Source: Candidatus Chisholmbacteria bacterium
GTDB lineage: Bacteria; Patescibacteriota; Microgenomatia; UBA1400; JACOWY01
Length of the DNA stretch: 42,933 bases
Direction of reading: 5' to 3'
Assembly (NCBI GenBank): GCA_016176555.1
Contig: JACOWY010000005.1
Coordinates: forward strand, 1 to 42,933
Both the position numbers and the translations under genes were made by a program. This document shows positions 6,595 to 10,405 of the stretch, piece by piece. How positions within the stretch are numbered: the stretch's first letter is position 1; the number at the start of each line of letters is the position of its first letter. The notes under the pieces are model-generated. The model made no database searches and was not told where the DNA came from. It saw only the letters and a list, made by a program, of their open reading frames with translations.

Positions 6595-7596
6595 CTATGT
6601 TCCAAGTTTGAATAATTTGTTTGTGTTTTTAGTCGTCGCTGCCTCAATTGTAGCTGTCTCTACTCCTCGCTGCTCCGCATGAAACGCCGCGAGTATCGCC
6701 ACGTCCTTCGGCTCAGATCTGTCACTCCGGTCACCTCGGACGGTGGCAGGCTGAGCCTGCGAAGCCATGACTCCTCCGAGGTGGAGGTTTTTAGGTTTCA
6801 TAAACGGACAATCAGTTTCTAAAAGCAATCTGTCCAACGGCACTTCCAAGGCTACTGCCGCGCGGTCGGCCACGTAGGTTACTTGACCGGTAAAGCTGAC
6901 GTAAAAACCCGCCACCAGTATTTGCTCCAGATAACTCTTAGAACCATCAAAGCAATGCCAAACTCCTTTAGGCACCACTCCATCCTTCTTAGAAAAATGT
7001 TCAACTACATCCAACACATCTCGGCCCGCTTCGCGGCTATGAAGTATGAGCGGTAAATCAAGCTCTTTGGCCAACTCTACTTGCATCCCCAAAAGTTGTT
7101 TTTGTAAGTTTTTTAACCCGATATCATTTTTGATCTTTGATTTTTGATTTTGAGCTTGCGAAAAAGAGCGGCCAATCTGGCGTCCTGCCGGAGAGGCGTA
7201 GCTATATTTGCTTTTCCTATATAGGTGGTAATCCAACCCCACTTCCCCCACCGCCACTACTTTTGGATTCCTTGCCAGCTTTTTTAGTTCATTTGACACG
7301 ACTGCTAAACTCTTCAGAGCAGTAGTGTCATCCTGAGCAGATCTGGAACTTTGTGAAGTTCCAGACCGTCGAAGGATCTCCTCCATTAGCCCCCGAACAT
7401 GGTGTGGGTGGACGCCAACAGTTGCATACAAAGCAGGATTCTCAGCCGCCATCTTTACCGCTTTCTCACTCGACTCAATATCAACGCCCACCACAATCAT
7501 TTTTTCTACCCCTGCTTCTTTCGCCCGCTTCACCACTTCTTCCCAGTCATTCTCAAATGACTGGAAATTCAAATGCGTATGCGTATCGATCAGCAT
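6595..7596 (-). CDS. tatD: TatD-family metal-dependent hydrolase with three inserted repeat-derived peptides
   Basis: MLIDTHTHLNFQSF, VGEVGLDYH, LILHSREAG, HCFDGS, LLLETDCPFM. Confidence 0.93.
   Translation of the reverse strand: MLIDTHTHLNFQSFENDWEEVVKRAKEAGVEKMIVVGVDIESSEKAVKMAAENPALYATVGVHPHHVRGLMEEILRRSGTSQSSRSAQDDTTALKSLAVVSNELKKLARNPKVVAVGEVGLDYHLYRKSKYSYASPAGRQIGRSFSQAQNQKSKIKNDIGLKNLQKQLLGMQVELAKELDLPLILHSREAGRDVLDVVEHFSKKDGVVPKGVWHCFDGSKSYLEQILVAGFYVSFTGQVTYVADRAAVALEVPLDRLLLETDCPFMKPKNLHLGGVMASQAQPATVRGDRSDRSEPKDVAILAAFHAEQRGVETATIEAATTKNTNKLFKLGT
6732..6783. repeat. Palindromic element in frame within tatD (third insertion)
   Basis: Outer CACCTCGGA (6732-6740) / TCCGAGGTG (6775-6783); inner GCAGGC-TGA-GCCTGC (6746-6760). 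Confidence 0.8.
7127..7216. repeat. AT-rich plus GC hairpin mosaic element in frame within tatD (second insertion)
   Basis: GATCTTTGATTTTTGATTTTGAGCTTGCG...GGAGAGGCGTAGC; encodes SPAGRQIGRSFSQAQNQKSKIKND, absent from usual TatD loops. Confidence 0.7.
7327..7380. repeat. GTCATCCTGAGC...GAAGGATCTC repeat in frame within tatD (first insertion)
   Basis: Inner perfect hairpin TCTGGAACTT-TGTG-AAGTTCCAGA (7342-7365); related copies at 11087 and 26003. Confidence 0.85.
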
Positions 7597-7629: not shown

Positions 7630-9054
7630 CTAGCTCACTCTAGGGAACAGTGGCTTTCCTGCCTTAATCTTCGGTCCTCGAAATTGCTCTAAGATTTTCT
7701 CTGCTGTTTCCGGCATAAATGGCGTCAGCTCAAAACCAATCTGCCGCAAGTGAGCGACCAGCTCTGTCAGCGTTACTCGAAGCTTAGTCCCAGAAAGTTC
7801 CCAAGGTTTAGCCTCCTCAATTTTTTTGTCCACCTCTCGTATTCGCTGCCAAATCTCAAAAAGTGCCAAGTCAAAGCGGTACTGTTGCAACTGCTTTTCT
7901 ACCGCTGGTCTCAATACTGTCGGATCGTCTTGAGCAAAAGTGAAATCACTTTGTTCAGCCAGCTTTGCCACTCGCGCTACCACGTTACCCAAACCATTAG
8001 CTAAATCAGCCGTATACGAATTATTCAGTTTTTCCCAAGTGACATCCATATCGGTATGCACCGGTCCTAGTCCCATTAGAAGGTAACGCGATCCATCAAC
8101 CCCAAAACGGCCCACCAGATCTTTAGGCGCAATTACATTTCCCAAACTTTTACTCATTTTCTGCCCCGCCACGCTAATAAAACCATTGATCAGAATCTGT
8201 TTTGAATTGGGTAACCCCGCCGAGAAGAGCATTGCTTGCCACATCGCTGATTGTTGCCGTAAATTATCCTTACCCGCAATCTGCACCCCCGGCCAAAATG
8301 CTTTAAAATTCTTCTCGTCTTCAGGCCACCCGAGAGTTGAAATGTAATTAATTAAGGCGTCAAACCACACGAACATTACTTGGTCTTTATCACCAGGTAC
8401 AGGCACTCCCCAAGGCAGCTTTGATTTAAGCCTCGAAATGCTGAAATCTTTCAGTCCCCCTTTAACCAATGCCACGATCTCTTTGTATTTACCCTCAGGT
8501 TTGACGAAATCGGGATTATCTCGATAAAGCTTCAACAGCCTCTCTTGGTACCGGGAAAATCTAAAAAAGTAGTTTTCCTCGTCGAATACCTCCAGTGGCT
8601 TATTCGGGTGTAGGGGACACCGACCCCCCTCCAACTCCGAATCTGTTTTCTCTAGCTCACAGCCGACACAATACTTAATCTTGTATGTAGCTTTGTATAT
8701 ATCACCGTTAGCATCGCATCGACGCCAAAATTCTTGGGCCGCCCGTTTGTGAGCGGGATTTGTAGTCCGGATAAAGTTAGTAAAGCTTAAGTTGAGTAAA
8801 TCCTTAAGTTTCCTAAATTTAATCGAGTTTTTATCCACAAACTCTTTAGGCTCAAGCCCTTCTTCTTGGGCTTGGCGGTAAATTTTTAGTCCGTGTTCAT
8901 CCGTGCCGGTATTAAACCGGACTTCTTTGCCGAGCATCCGTTGGTAGCGAGAAATCACATCCGCCGTCACGATCTCCAGAGCAAAGCCGATATGGGGATC
9001 GGCATTCACATATGGCGTCGTCGTGGTGATGTAGAAGTAATTTTTCCTGCTCAT
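7630..9054 (-). CDS. metG: Methionyl-tRNA synthetase
   Basis: TTTTPYVNADPHIGFAL (HIGH) and AGQKMSKSLGN (KMSKS); CVGCELEK ... GGRCPLH zinc region. Confidence 0.96.
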   Translation of the reverse strand: MSRKNYFYITTTTPYVNADPHIGFALEIVTADVISRYQRMLGKEVRFNTGTDEHGLKIYRQAQEEGLEPKEFVDKNSIKFRKLKDLLNLSFTNFIRTTNPAHKRAAQEFWRRCDANGDIYKATYKIKYCVGCELEKTDSELEGGRCPLHPNKPLEVFDEENYFFRFSRYQERLLKLYRDNPDFVKPEGKYKEIVALVKGGLKDFSISRLKSKLPWGVPVPGDKDQVMFVWFDALINYISTLGWPEDEKNFKAFWPGVQIAGKDNLRQQSAMWQAMLFSAGLPNSKQILINGFISVAGQKMSKSLGNVIAPKDLVGRFGVDGSRYLLMGLGPVHTDMDVTWEKLNNSYTADLANGLGNVVARVAKLAEQSDFTFAQDDPTVLRPAVEKQLQQYRFDLALFEIWQRIREVDKKIEEAKPWELSGTKLRVTLTELVAHLRQIGFELTPFMPETAEKILEQFRGPKIKAGKPLFPRVS

Positions 9055-9078: not shown

Positions 9079-9843
9079 CTAATCTTCTAGTCGTTCAACC
9101 GACAAAACATCTCCTGTTTTGACTTGGAATTTCTCCACCGCCGAACCAAGGCGTTGGGCAACCTCCAAAGTTTGATGACTTCCTTCATAAATTAGTAGCT
9201 CCCCTGGACCAACATCTTCAAAAGTTTTGCAAAATGGTATAACCGCTTCAAAAACTGAACTTCCAACTAATACCCTATCTCCCGCACTAAAATTTGTCGC
9301 TTCTGAGCTTAATTTAATATTCCCATAGGGATCAACGTGTACCACTTGGTAGGGAGAAAACTCCAGTGGAATAATTTCCGTTGTCTCCAGTGGCACGCAA
9401 AATTCTTCCAGCCTCACTCCTCGCGTTAATAACCCTGCTGCCCGAGCAAAAACATCTCTGCCATGGAAAGTGTTTGATCTAATCGGAGCAATCCTGTCTT
9501 CTTCTAGTCGATAGGCTTGAATAATGCCATCGTCTCTCGCCGCCGGGTACAACAACCCATTATTCGGTCCAATAAACCAGTGATTTCTTGATCGAATTAA
9601 TAATCCAGACCTTTCCGAACCGACTCCAGGATCCACCACTCCTAAGTGTATTGACCCAGGTGGAGCCAATCTATAAACCTTAGACAGTACAAACGCCCCT
9701 TCAATAACTGAAAACGGGGAAACCGTATTTGAAACGTTAACAATCCGCGCTTCTCCGTTTAAGGCAGCAATAACTAGCTCTAGCTGTGCTAAAGCAAAGG
9801 CATCACCGAAATCAGTTGTGACCGTTATTACTTCTTTAGGCAT
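9079..9843 (-). CDS. SAM hydroxide adenosyltransferase / S-adenosylmethionine hydrolase family protein (DUF62)
   Basis: VTTDFGD, HLGVVDPGVGSER, GPNNGLL, NTFHGRDVFARAAG, VDPYGNIKLS. Confidence 0.9.
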   Translation of the reverse strand: MPKEVITVTTDFGDAFALAQLELVIAALNGEARIVNVSNTVSPFSVIEGAFVLSKVYRLAPPGSIHLGVVDPGVGSERSGLLIRSRNHWFIGPNNGLLYPAARDDGIIQAYRLEEDRIAPIRSNTFHGRDVFARAAGLLTRGVRLEEFCVPLETTEIIPLEFSPYQVVHVDPYGNIKLSSEATNFSAGDRVLVGSSVFEAVIPFCKTFEDVGPGELLIYEGSHQTLEVAQRLGSAVEKFQVKTGDVLSVERLED

Positions 9844-9847
9844 AAAA

Positions 9848-9868
9848 AACCTCCTGGGAAAGGAGGTT
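9848..9868 (-). promoter_or_regulatory. SD-sequestering / terminator-like hairpin before the SAM-hydrolase gene
   Basis: Minus strand AACCTCCT-TTCCC-AGGAGGTT then T-tract and ATG; AGGAGG is the SD, 6 nt from the ATG. Confidence 0.75.
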
Positions 9869-9893
9869 AACTTTTGATCTTAAAATTTTAACT

Positions 9894-9980
9894 TTAAATC
9901 TCTTCCACTACCTCCTCTCGCCCATAATTTAATGCGCTCATCATCATTTCCATCATGGCGGAACGAGGCTGAATAATCAT
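9894..9980 (-). CDS. Putative Met-rich leader peptide, 28 aa: MIIQPRSAMMEMMMSALNYGREEVVEEI
   Basis: Short ORF starting about 7 nt after TATAAT; 6 Met in 28 codons including MM-E-MMM; below the ORF-track length cutoff. Confidence 0.55.
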   Translation of the reverse strand: MIIQPRSAMMEMMMSALNYGREEVVEEI

Positions 9981-9986
9981 AGGGCT

Positions 9987-9995
9987 ATTATAACA
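9987..9995 (-). promoter_or_regulatory. Extended -10 promoter TGTTATAAT for the leader / SAM hydrolase / metG operon
   Basis: TG-N-TATAAT on the minus strand; predicted start site falls on or next to the leader ATG (9980). Confidence 0.65.
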
Positions 9996-10036: not shown

Positions 10037-10405
10037 CTATCCTTTACCCACCATTGACTTAAACAAGTTGGCAATCTTATGTGACCACTTTTCCGCCCAG
10101 ACTTCTGCCTTCACTTTGCGCAATGCCGCTTGTATCCCTGGGTTTCCCATTTGCTCCTGCACCGTGGCCACCGTCGCCGAAGATACTTTCAAAGTTTCTT
10201 TGATATTTTCATACGATCTCCCTTTATCGAGAAACGCCACAATTGCCAGTTTTTTCGCCAAAGCGATGTGTTGCGTCTCGCCCAAAAGGTCTTTCAAAAT
10301 CAACCCCACCTCATCCGGATCTGTCGCATCCGCCAACATTTGGTGTAGCACCCAAAAAAGCTGTTTTTCAATATGCAGATTCAGTCTTCGCGTCGAAGCT
10401 TGCAT
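10037..10405 (-). CDS. YerC/TrpR-like (trp repressor family) transcriptional regulator
   Basis: VGLILKDLLGETQHIALAKKLAIVAFLDKGRSYENIKETLKVSSATVATV is a TrpR/YerC helix-turn-helix pattern. Confidence 0.85.
   Translation of the reverse strand: MQASTRRLNLHIEKQLFWVLHQMLADATDPDEVGLILKDLLGETQHIALAKKLAIVAFLDKGRSYENIKETLKVSSATVATVQEQMGNPGIQAALRKVKAEVWAEKWSHKIANLFKSMVGKG

Follow-up and report, generated by a model that had tools for sequence, protein, structure and literature searches.

A probable methionine-codon transcription attenuator upstream of SAM hydrolase and metG genes in Candidatus Chisholmbacteria and related bacteria

Transcription attenuators that read a run of cognate codons are textbook cases of regulation for Trp, His, Leu, Ile/Val, Thr, and Phe, and one that reads Cys codons has also been described. 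Attenuators of this kind have been described in front of aminoacyl-tRNA synthetase genes, such as trpS and leuS in Streptomyces (PMC1262725) and hisS/hisZ in bacilli (PMC2965389). In mycobacteria, according to the account of Canestrari et al. (2020) given in PMC9031893, short leaderless ORFs with poly-Cys runs serve as attenuators; these have no obvious conserved terminator hairpins (PMC1262725). The usual RNA control of Met genes in other phyla is by SAM riboswitches and T-boxes (PMC2965389), and PMC1262725 reports none for the Met operons of Actinobacteria. The initial annotation of the DNA studied here knew of no Met-codon attenuator of this architecture, and no Met-codon attenuator was found in the literature searched, which did not cover most subscription papers and is thus not proof of absence.

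The window, i.e., the entire 42,933-nt stretch of Candidatus Chisholmbacteria DNA that was analyzed, contains on its minus strand a region that, judging from its sequence and that of its relatives, is very likely a transcription attenuator that works in the classical way, through a ribosome on a leader peptide ORF, and whose regulatory amino acid is methionine. Similarly to the trp-, his-, leu-, thr-, and phe-type attenuators of Proteobacteria and Actinobacteria, it combines a short ORF carrying a cognate codon run with helices 1:2, 2:3, and 3:4 and a U-tract terminator, and the controlled genes serve the same amino acid as the codon run. In contrast to those attenuators, it relies on Met codons, belongs to an uncultured phylum with small genomes, is probably leaderless, and often has a SAM hydrolase gene in its operon. 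The mycobacterial poly-Cys ORFs are likewise short, leaderless, and located upstream of an operon, with a run of a single codon that senses amino acid supply; however, they act on Cys, whereas the present system has Met codons, an intrinsic terminator, and a conserved antiterminator. T-boxes and SAM riboswitches of metG and other Met genes share with it the biological purpose and the position before synthetase or Met genes, but here there is no Rfam match and no tRNA- or ligand-binding fold, and the proposed sensor is the translating ribosome. The attenuator type is therefore known for other amino acids, and it is Met as the regulatory codon that appears to be new.

All the elements listed in the initial annotation were recovered base by base (all coordinates in this and the next paragraph refer to the minus strand). 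An extended -10 element, TGTTATAAT (9987 to 9995), is separated by 6 nt from the leader ATG at 9980, and transcription is expected to start at or next to that ATG; a good -35 element is absent upstream. The ATG, which at the same time lies in frame within a longer ORF of 43 codons that begins with GTG, opens a 28-codon ORF (9894 to 9980) for the Met-rich peptide MIIQPRSAMMEMMMSALNYGREEVVEEI, with the conserved regulatory codons ATG ATG GAA ATG ATG ATG at 9939 to 9956 as the proposed stall site. Segment 1, CAGCCTCGTTCCGCC (about 9957 to 9971), immediately precedes the first Met codon and would thus be covered by a ribosome stalled there. As indicated by the minimum free energy (MFE) fold and by the duplex and species-swap tests, it pairs with segment 2 (9903 to 9922), in which the full stretch from 9922 to 9903 faces segment 1 and the part from 9919 to 9910, GAGAGGAGGT, pairs with segment 3 as the antiterminator. 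Segment 3, AACCTCCTTTC (9858 to 9868), is both the partner of segment 2 and the 5' arm of the predicted intrinsic terminator, the 3' arm of which is segment 4 with its T-tract, AGGAGGTTTTTT (9844 to 9855). The resulting hairpin, AACCTCCT-TTCCC-AGGAGGTT (9868 to 9848), is followed by TTTT directly before the ATG at 9843. The AGGAGG within segment 4 (9855 to 9850), 6 nt before that ATG, is the apparent Shine-Dalgarno sequence of the first gene, and a second AGGAGGT (9916 to 9910) is located near the end of the leader ORF. The initial annotation had proposed a 1:2 versus 2:3 switch between these two elements; the alternative pairing was borne out, but there are three alternative helices, the arm then called segment 1 corresponds to segment 2 in the classical numbering, and the true segment 1 had been missed. 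Its extended -10 is present, and the apparently leaderless arrangement that goes with it was overlooked. The whole leader, about 135 nt long, is mostly accounted for by the ORF and the hairpins. The 1.0-Mb genome contains a single instance of the motif ACCTCCT-N3-12-AGGAGGT. Given an unremarkable single-sequence folding z-score of -1.3, the support for an attenuator is comparative rather than thermodynamic.

The first gene under the proposed control (9079 to 9843) encodes a predicted SAM hydroxide adenosyltransferase (SAM hydrolase), with both domains above the curated cut-offs: PF01887 (E value 4.5e-43; 146.9 versus 26.3 bits) and PF20257 (8.1e-17; 61.8 versus 25.5 bits). It is followed by metG for methionyl-tRNA synthetase (7630 to 9054; PF09334, 4.5e-94), and control by Met-tRNA charging, as first suggested, is coherent with this pair of genes. 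After a 33-nt gap comes a tatD nuclease gene (6595 to 7596; PF01026, 2.2e-65), which, to judge from that spacing, is probably the last gene of the operon. The tatD frame carries low-complexity or repeat-like insertions, RRSGTSQSSRSAQDDTT and SFSQAQNQKSKIKN, which look like in-frame intergenic repeats. Directly upstream of the attenuator lies yerC, a gene for a TrpR-family (YerC-like) regulator (10037 to 10405; PF01371); three distant genomes, represented by the window and loci L018 and L267, have a gene of this family immediately 5' of the attenuator.

The proposed mechanism can be described as follows. RNA polymerase would start at or beside the leader ATG, and the ribosome would initiate directly on this 5' ATG. 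With charged elongator Met-tRNA in ample supply, the ribosome would reach the stop codon and cover segment 2, so that the 3:4 terminator forms and transcription ends before the SAM hydrolase-metG(-tatD) genes. When charged Met-tRNA is scarce, the ribosome would stall on the ATG run and cover segment 1, allowing segments 2 and 3 to pair and the polymerase to read through into the genes. Because segment 4 of the window doubles as the Shine-Dalgarno sequence, freeing it could open translation as well. The metG product would then raise Met-tRNA charging, and the hydrolase may release Met from SAM. The core idea of an attenuator that senses Met-tRNA charging is strongly supported.

Met-rich ORFs that appear to be counterparts of the window leader were identified in another 22 genomes of the phylum, 21 of which belong to the same class, upstream of SAM hydrolase-metG, of metG alone, or of other genes with metG, in line with the Met-codon leader first put forward for the window. 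Comparison of the leaders showed that the Met run is conserved and that both pairings of the shared CCTCC arm covary. Segments 2, 3, and 4 of the 23 leaders change as triples, nearly all of which keep both pairings: counted from the loop, position 2 (offset 1) is G-C-G in 19 leaders and C-G-C in 3, and position 3 (offset 2) is A-U-A in 15, G-C-G in 5, and C-G-C in 2. In a species-swap test, which keeps composition but ignores shared ancestry, native duplex energies were compared with those of 5,000 between-species swaps. None of the swaps was as good as the native pairing for helix 2:3 (-15.7 native versus -12.9 swapped) or helix 3:4 (-11.2 versus -7.8), and only 4 were for helix 1:2 (-13.1 versus -11.4), which is weak in G187, G246, G119, and G098; the control pairing 1:3 (-1.2 versus -1.3) was equaled in 3,220 swaps.

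Ribosome positions were represented in a partition-function model by folding the RNA with the covered stretch removed. With the ribosome on the Met codons of the window leader, segment 3 was paired upstream with a probability of 0.88 and with segment 4 with a probability of 0.00, in line with the earlier expectation that stalling frees the downstream genes; with the ribosome at the stop codon, the terminator reached 0.94. The respective full-length means for all 23 leaders were 0.70 upstream and 0.25 terminator when stalled and 0.01 and 0.94 at the stop codon. The locus shows the sequence features of an attenuator: a cognate codon run, mutually exclusive 2:3 and 3:4 helices, a 1:2 helix whose segment 1 would be covered by the stalled ribosome, and a predicted U-tract terminator before the first gene. 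Ribosome-free RNA favored the terminator in the window (0.81) and read-through in about 40% of the leaders. Since Met-tRNA also starts the leader peptide, no ribosome would be present on the leader under severe Met starvation, and, if so, the response in the window would be on only at intermediate starvation, as its ribosome-free RNA favors the terminator.

The ORFs of the relatives have 13 to 22 codons and are usually predicted to be leaderless. ATG accounts for 80 of the 325 non-start codons across the 23 leaders, a figure that is only descriptive because many leaders were recognized partly by their Met run. Run patterns such as MMxMM, MMMxM, and MxMMM are kept, and beyond them the peptides share little sequence and vary in length and C terminus. 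In about 22 of the 23 leaders, a TATAAT-like -10 element matching at 4 to 6 of the 6 positions precedes the start codon by 6 to 10 nt, the one in G219 having no good -10 element; this short distance suggests that the Met leader ORFs are probably leaderless. In most of the leaders, the end of segment 1 coincides with the first Met codon or is no more than a few nucleotides away from it. Segment 2 starts within a few nucleotides of the stop codon in 21 of the 23 and lies inside the ORF in the other two (the window and G507), and the terminator begins 19 to 29 nt past the stop codon in all but G257, where the distance is 42 nt. The window copy is atypical both in this placement of segment 2 and in having the longest leader.

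Close homologs of the SAM hydrolase (38 to 48% identity) were found in eight genomes of the class, and in all eight, including locus L015, a short Met-rich ORF sits just 5' of the gene, encoding the peptides MSKLIQTSMMMVMRAG, MTIQSSVMMDMMLAS, MKQTLKTSTMAMVAV, MDKNVVAMGMMMTC, MISQTSVMMDMMNAS, VNVNIVAMSMMMTC, MNKFVTMMQMTSV, and MKLGVYMMAMDSA; in six of them, the following genes lead to metG. A member of another class of the phylum (L124) has the leader MKLLLSLLMQMMMHLVRGYCRV before a more distant SAM hydrolase. Met leaders also precede metG where this SAM hydrolase is missing (L127, L140, L178, L254, L255, L309, and L310). The target originally named was the SAM hydrolase-metG pair; metG is the gene common to nearly all the attenuated operons, and the SAM hydrolase is optional. 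The reverse strand of L254 carries two attenuators in tandem, MTITISMMMAMTAD and then MNHLLRQLVSMMQPP. Their leaders end at positions 955 and 1137, counted on the reversed locus; a separate terminator comes after each leader, and a 93-aa gene and metG lie downstream of both. The Met leader of G187 (L267, reverse strand, 687 to 1482) is followed first by what looks like a strongly divergent SAM hydrolase gene and then by metG. Among the 88 genomes of the window's own order, no other close SAM hydrolase homolog was found, only weak divergent matches, so the device cannot be traced in near relatives. A protein search of genomic and viral contig collections returned no close relatives of this enzyme, and an alignment search yielded proteins from archaea and other phyla, at whose loci a leader of this kind was looked for and not found.

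The position of the terminator in these relatives bears on whether the switch acts on transcription or, as the initial annotation had it, mainly by masking the Shine-Dalgarno sequence. In a purely translational attenuator, the 3:4 hairpin would mask the Shine-Dalgarno sequence of the SAM hydrolase gene until a ribosome on the leader unmasked it, which agrees with the AGGAGG in segment 4 of the window and with a similar arrangement of segment 4 and the Shine-Dalgarno sequence, GGAGGTTTTTTTATG, at L267. However, the terminator directly abuts the next start codon only in these two cases (the window and L267 of G187). In most relatives, it stands apart from the ribosome-binding site; at L013, L014, L140, and L254, for example, the hairpin and T-tract lie tens to hundreds of nucleotides 5' of the next start codon, and a T-tract follows the hairpin in all 23 leaders. 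A purely translational mode is therefore unlikely: the step shared by the leaders appears to be termination, and masking of the ribosome-binding site would be a local addition in the window and perhaps at L267.

Less biased tests of gene specificity came from an intergenic pattern scan, a strand control upstream of metG, and a codon-blind scan. The pattern TATAWT-N6-9-ATG-N9-36-ATGATGNNNATG, run over 374 genomes of the class without gene information, returned 17 distinct sites. All eight intergenic ones precede metG or SAM hydrolase-metG operons, and the other nine, as far as they were inspected, fall mostly within unrelated ORFs. In two genomes with intergenic sites and without this SAM hydrolase, the leader precedes metG directly or via a gene for a tRNA-binding domain. 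When 142 metG upstream regions from about 140 genomes were scanned on both strands for a short ORF with a terminator, Met-run ORFs were found in 10 cases on the sense strand and in no case on the antisense strand; a further three regions had shorter Met runs. The corresponding sense and antisense counts for other amino acids, 10 and 3 for Leu and 8 and 3 for Ser, are read as largely background plus Ser and Leu codons around the Met runs. A recognizable copy is present at only a minority of the metG genes of the class, roughly 13 of the 142 regions, with two included as already known.

These counts also weigh on the possibility that the hairpin does no more than terminate transcription of the upstream yerC gene, the Met-rich ORF being a coincidence. 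This gene ends at 10037 on the same strand, no other terminator was reported between it and the hairpin, and a yerC-like gene is also upstream at L018 and L267. Nevertheless, Met runs recur at the corresponding site across 23 genomes whose upstream genes differ, the strand control gave 10 versus 0, and there is covariation between segments 2 and 3, for which a terminator alone has no need. A plain terminator was accordingly rejected on the recurrence of the Met run and on covariation, and this reading is very improbable.

The codon-blind scan used only the 2-3-4 arrangement (GGAGG-N-CCTCC-NNNN-GGAGG-N-TTTT) and produced about 29 sites, comprising, among others, 12 Met leaders, most of which are followed by metG or SAM hydrolase, as well as five Thr leaders and one leader with a Phe run before pheS. 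Four of the five Thr leaders precede a threonyl-tRNA synthetase-like gene (two of them checked with Pfam), and one lies at a contig end. The Thr leaders, such as MKLIVNCTTTTSS and MKMIFNRTTTTIS, are found at about position 1500 of L303, L304, L305, L307, and L315, the contig of L305 ending before its downstream gene; the candidate Phe leader MKQVAASNQFFFN, with attenuator hairpins, is at L294 (1440 to 1560, plus strand). No Thr leader was seen at thrS of the window's own genome. It is conceivable, if still somewhat doubtful, that the phylum uses leaderless leader-peptide attenuation in general for several aminoacyl-tRNA synthetases, with the cognate runs Met-metG, Thr-thrS, and Phe-pheS, and including the paradox that Met is also the initiating amino acid. 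At L295 and L296 (about positions 1500 and 1096), MFS transporter genes are preceded by short ORFs with a similar hairpin arrangement. In addition, four apparently leaderless ORFs from the window's order (L298, L299, L300, and L301, each at about position 1500), with TATAAT near the start, are followed by a terminator and a GNAT acetyltransferase gene; instead of a codon run they have a partly conserved C-terminal region (Gly-Val/Ala...Phe/Cys...Glu-Ala) and possibly represent an arrest-peptide or drug-sensing attenuator.

A functional Met-rich micropeptide with secondary hairpins, for example one that binds metal, might also be considered, given that Met-rich peptides can bind copper. However, outside the Met run the leader peptides share little sequence and vary in length and C terminus, and the codon runs of the parallel Thr and Phe leaders fit the synthetase gene that follows (thrS and pheS, respectively) rather than a metal; on this divergence the micropeptide was rejected, and its likelihood is minimal. 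Just as implausible is a riboswitch or T-box that binds SAM, Met, or uncharged tRNA next to an incidental ORF: although Met genes elsewhere are usually under this form of RNA control, both were rejected because no covariance model matched, with no Rfam family at the gathering score in the window or ten leader loci, best subthreshold hits to unrelated families (e.g., Phe_leader, 20 bits versus a cut-off of 55), and little of the leader left to explain.

The Met-codon attenuator would add methionine, and an entire uncultured phylum with few known mechanisms of gene regulation, to the range of codon-run attenuation. It makes testable an attenuator whose regulatory amino acid starts every protein, and the leaders offer an easy way to study, by computation, how synthetases are regulated in organisms beyond the reach of culture. 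The pairing of metG with the SAM hydrolase gene, in a genome that also has metK, suggests that SAM may be drawn on as a Met reserve when Met-tRNA is in short supply.
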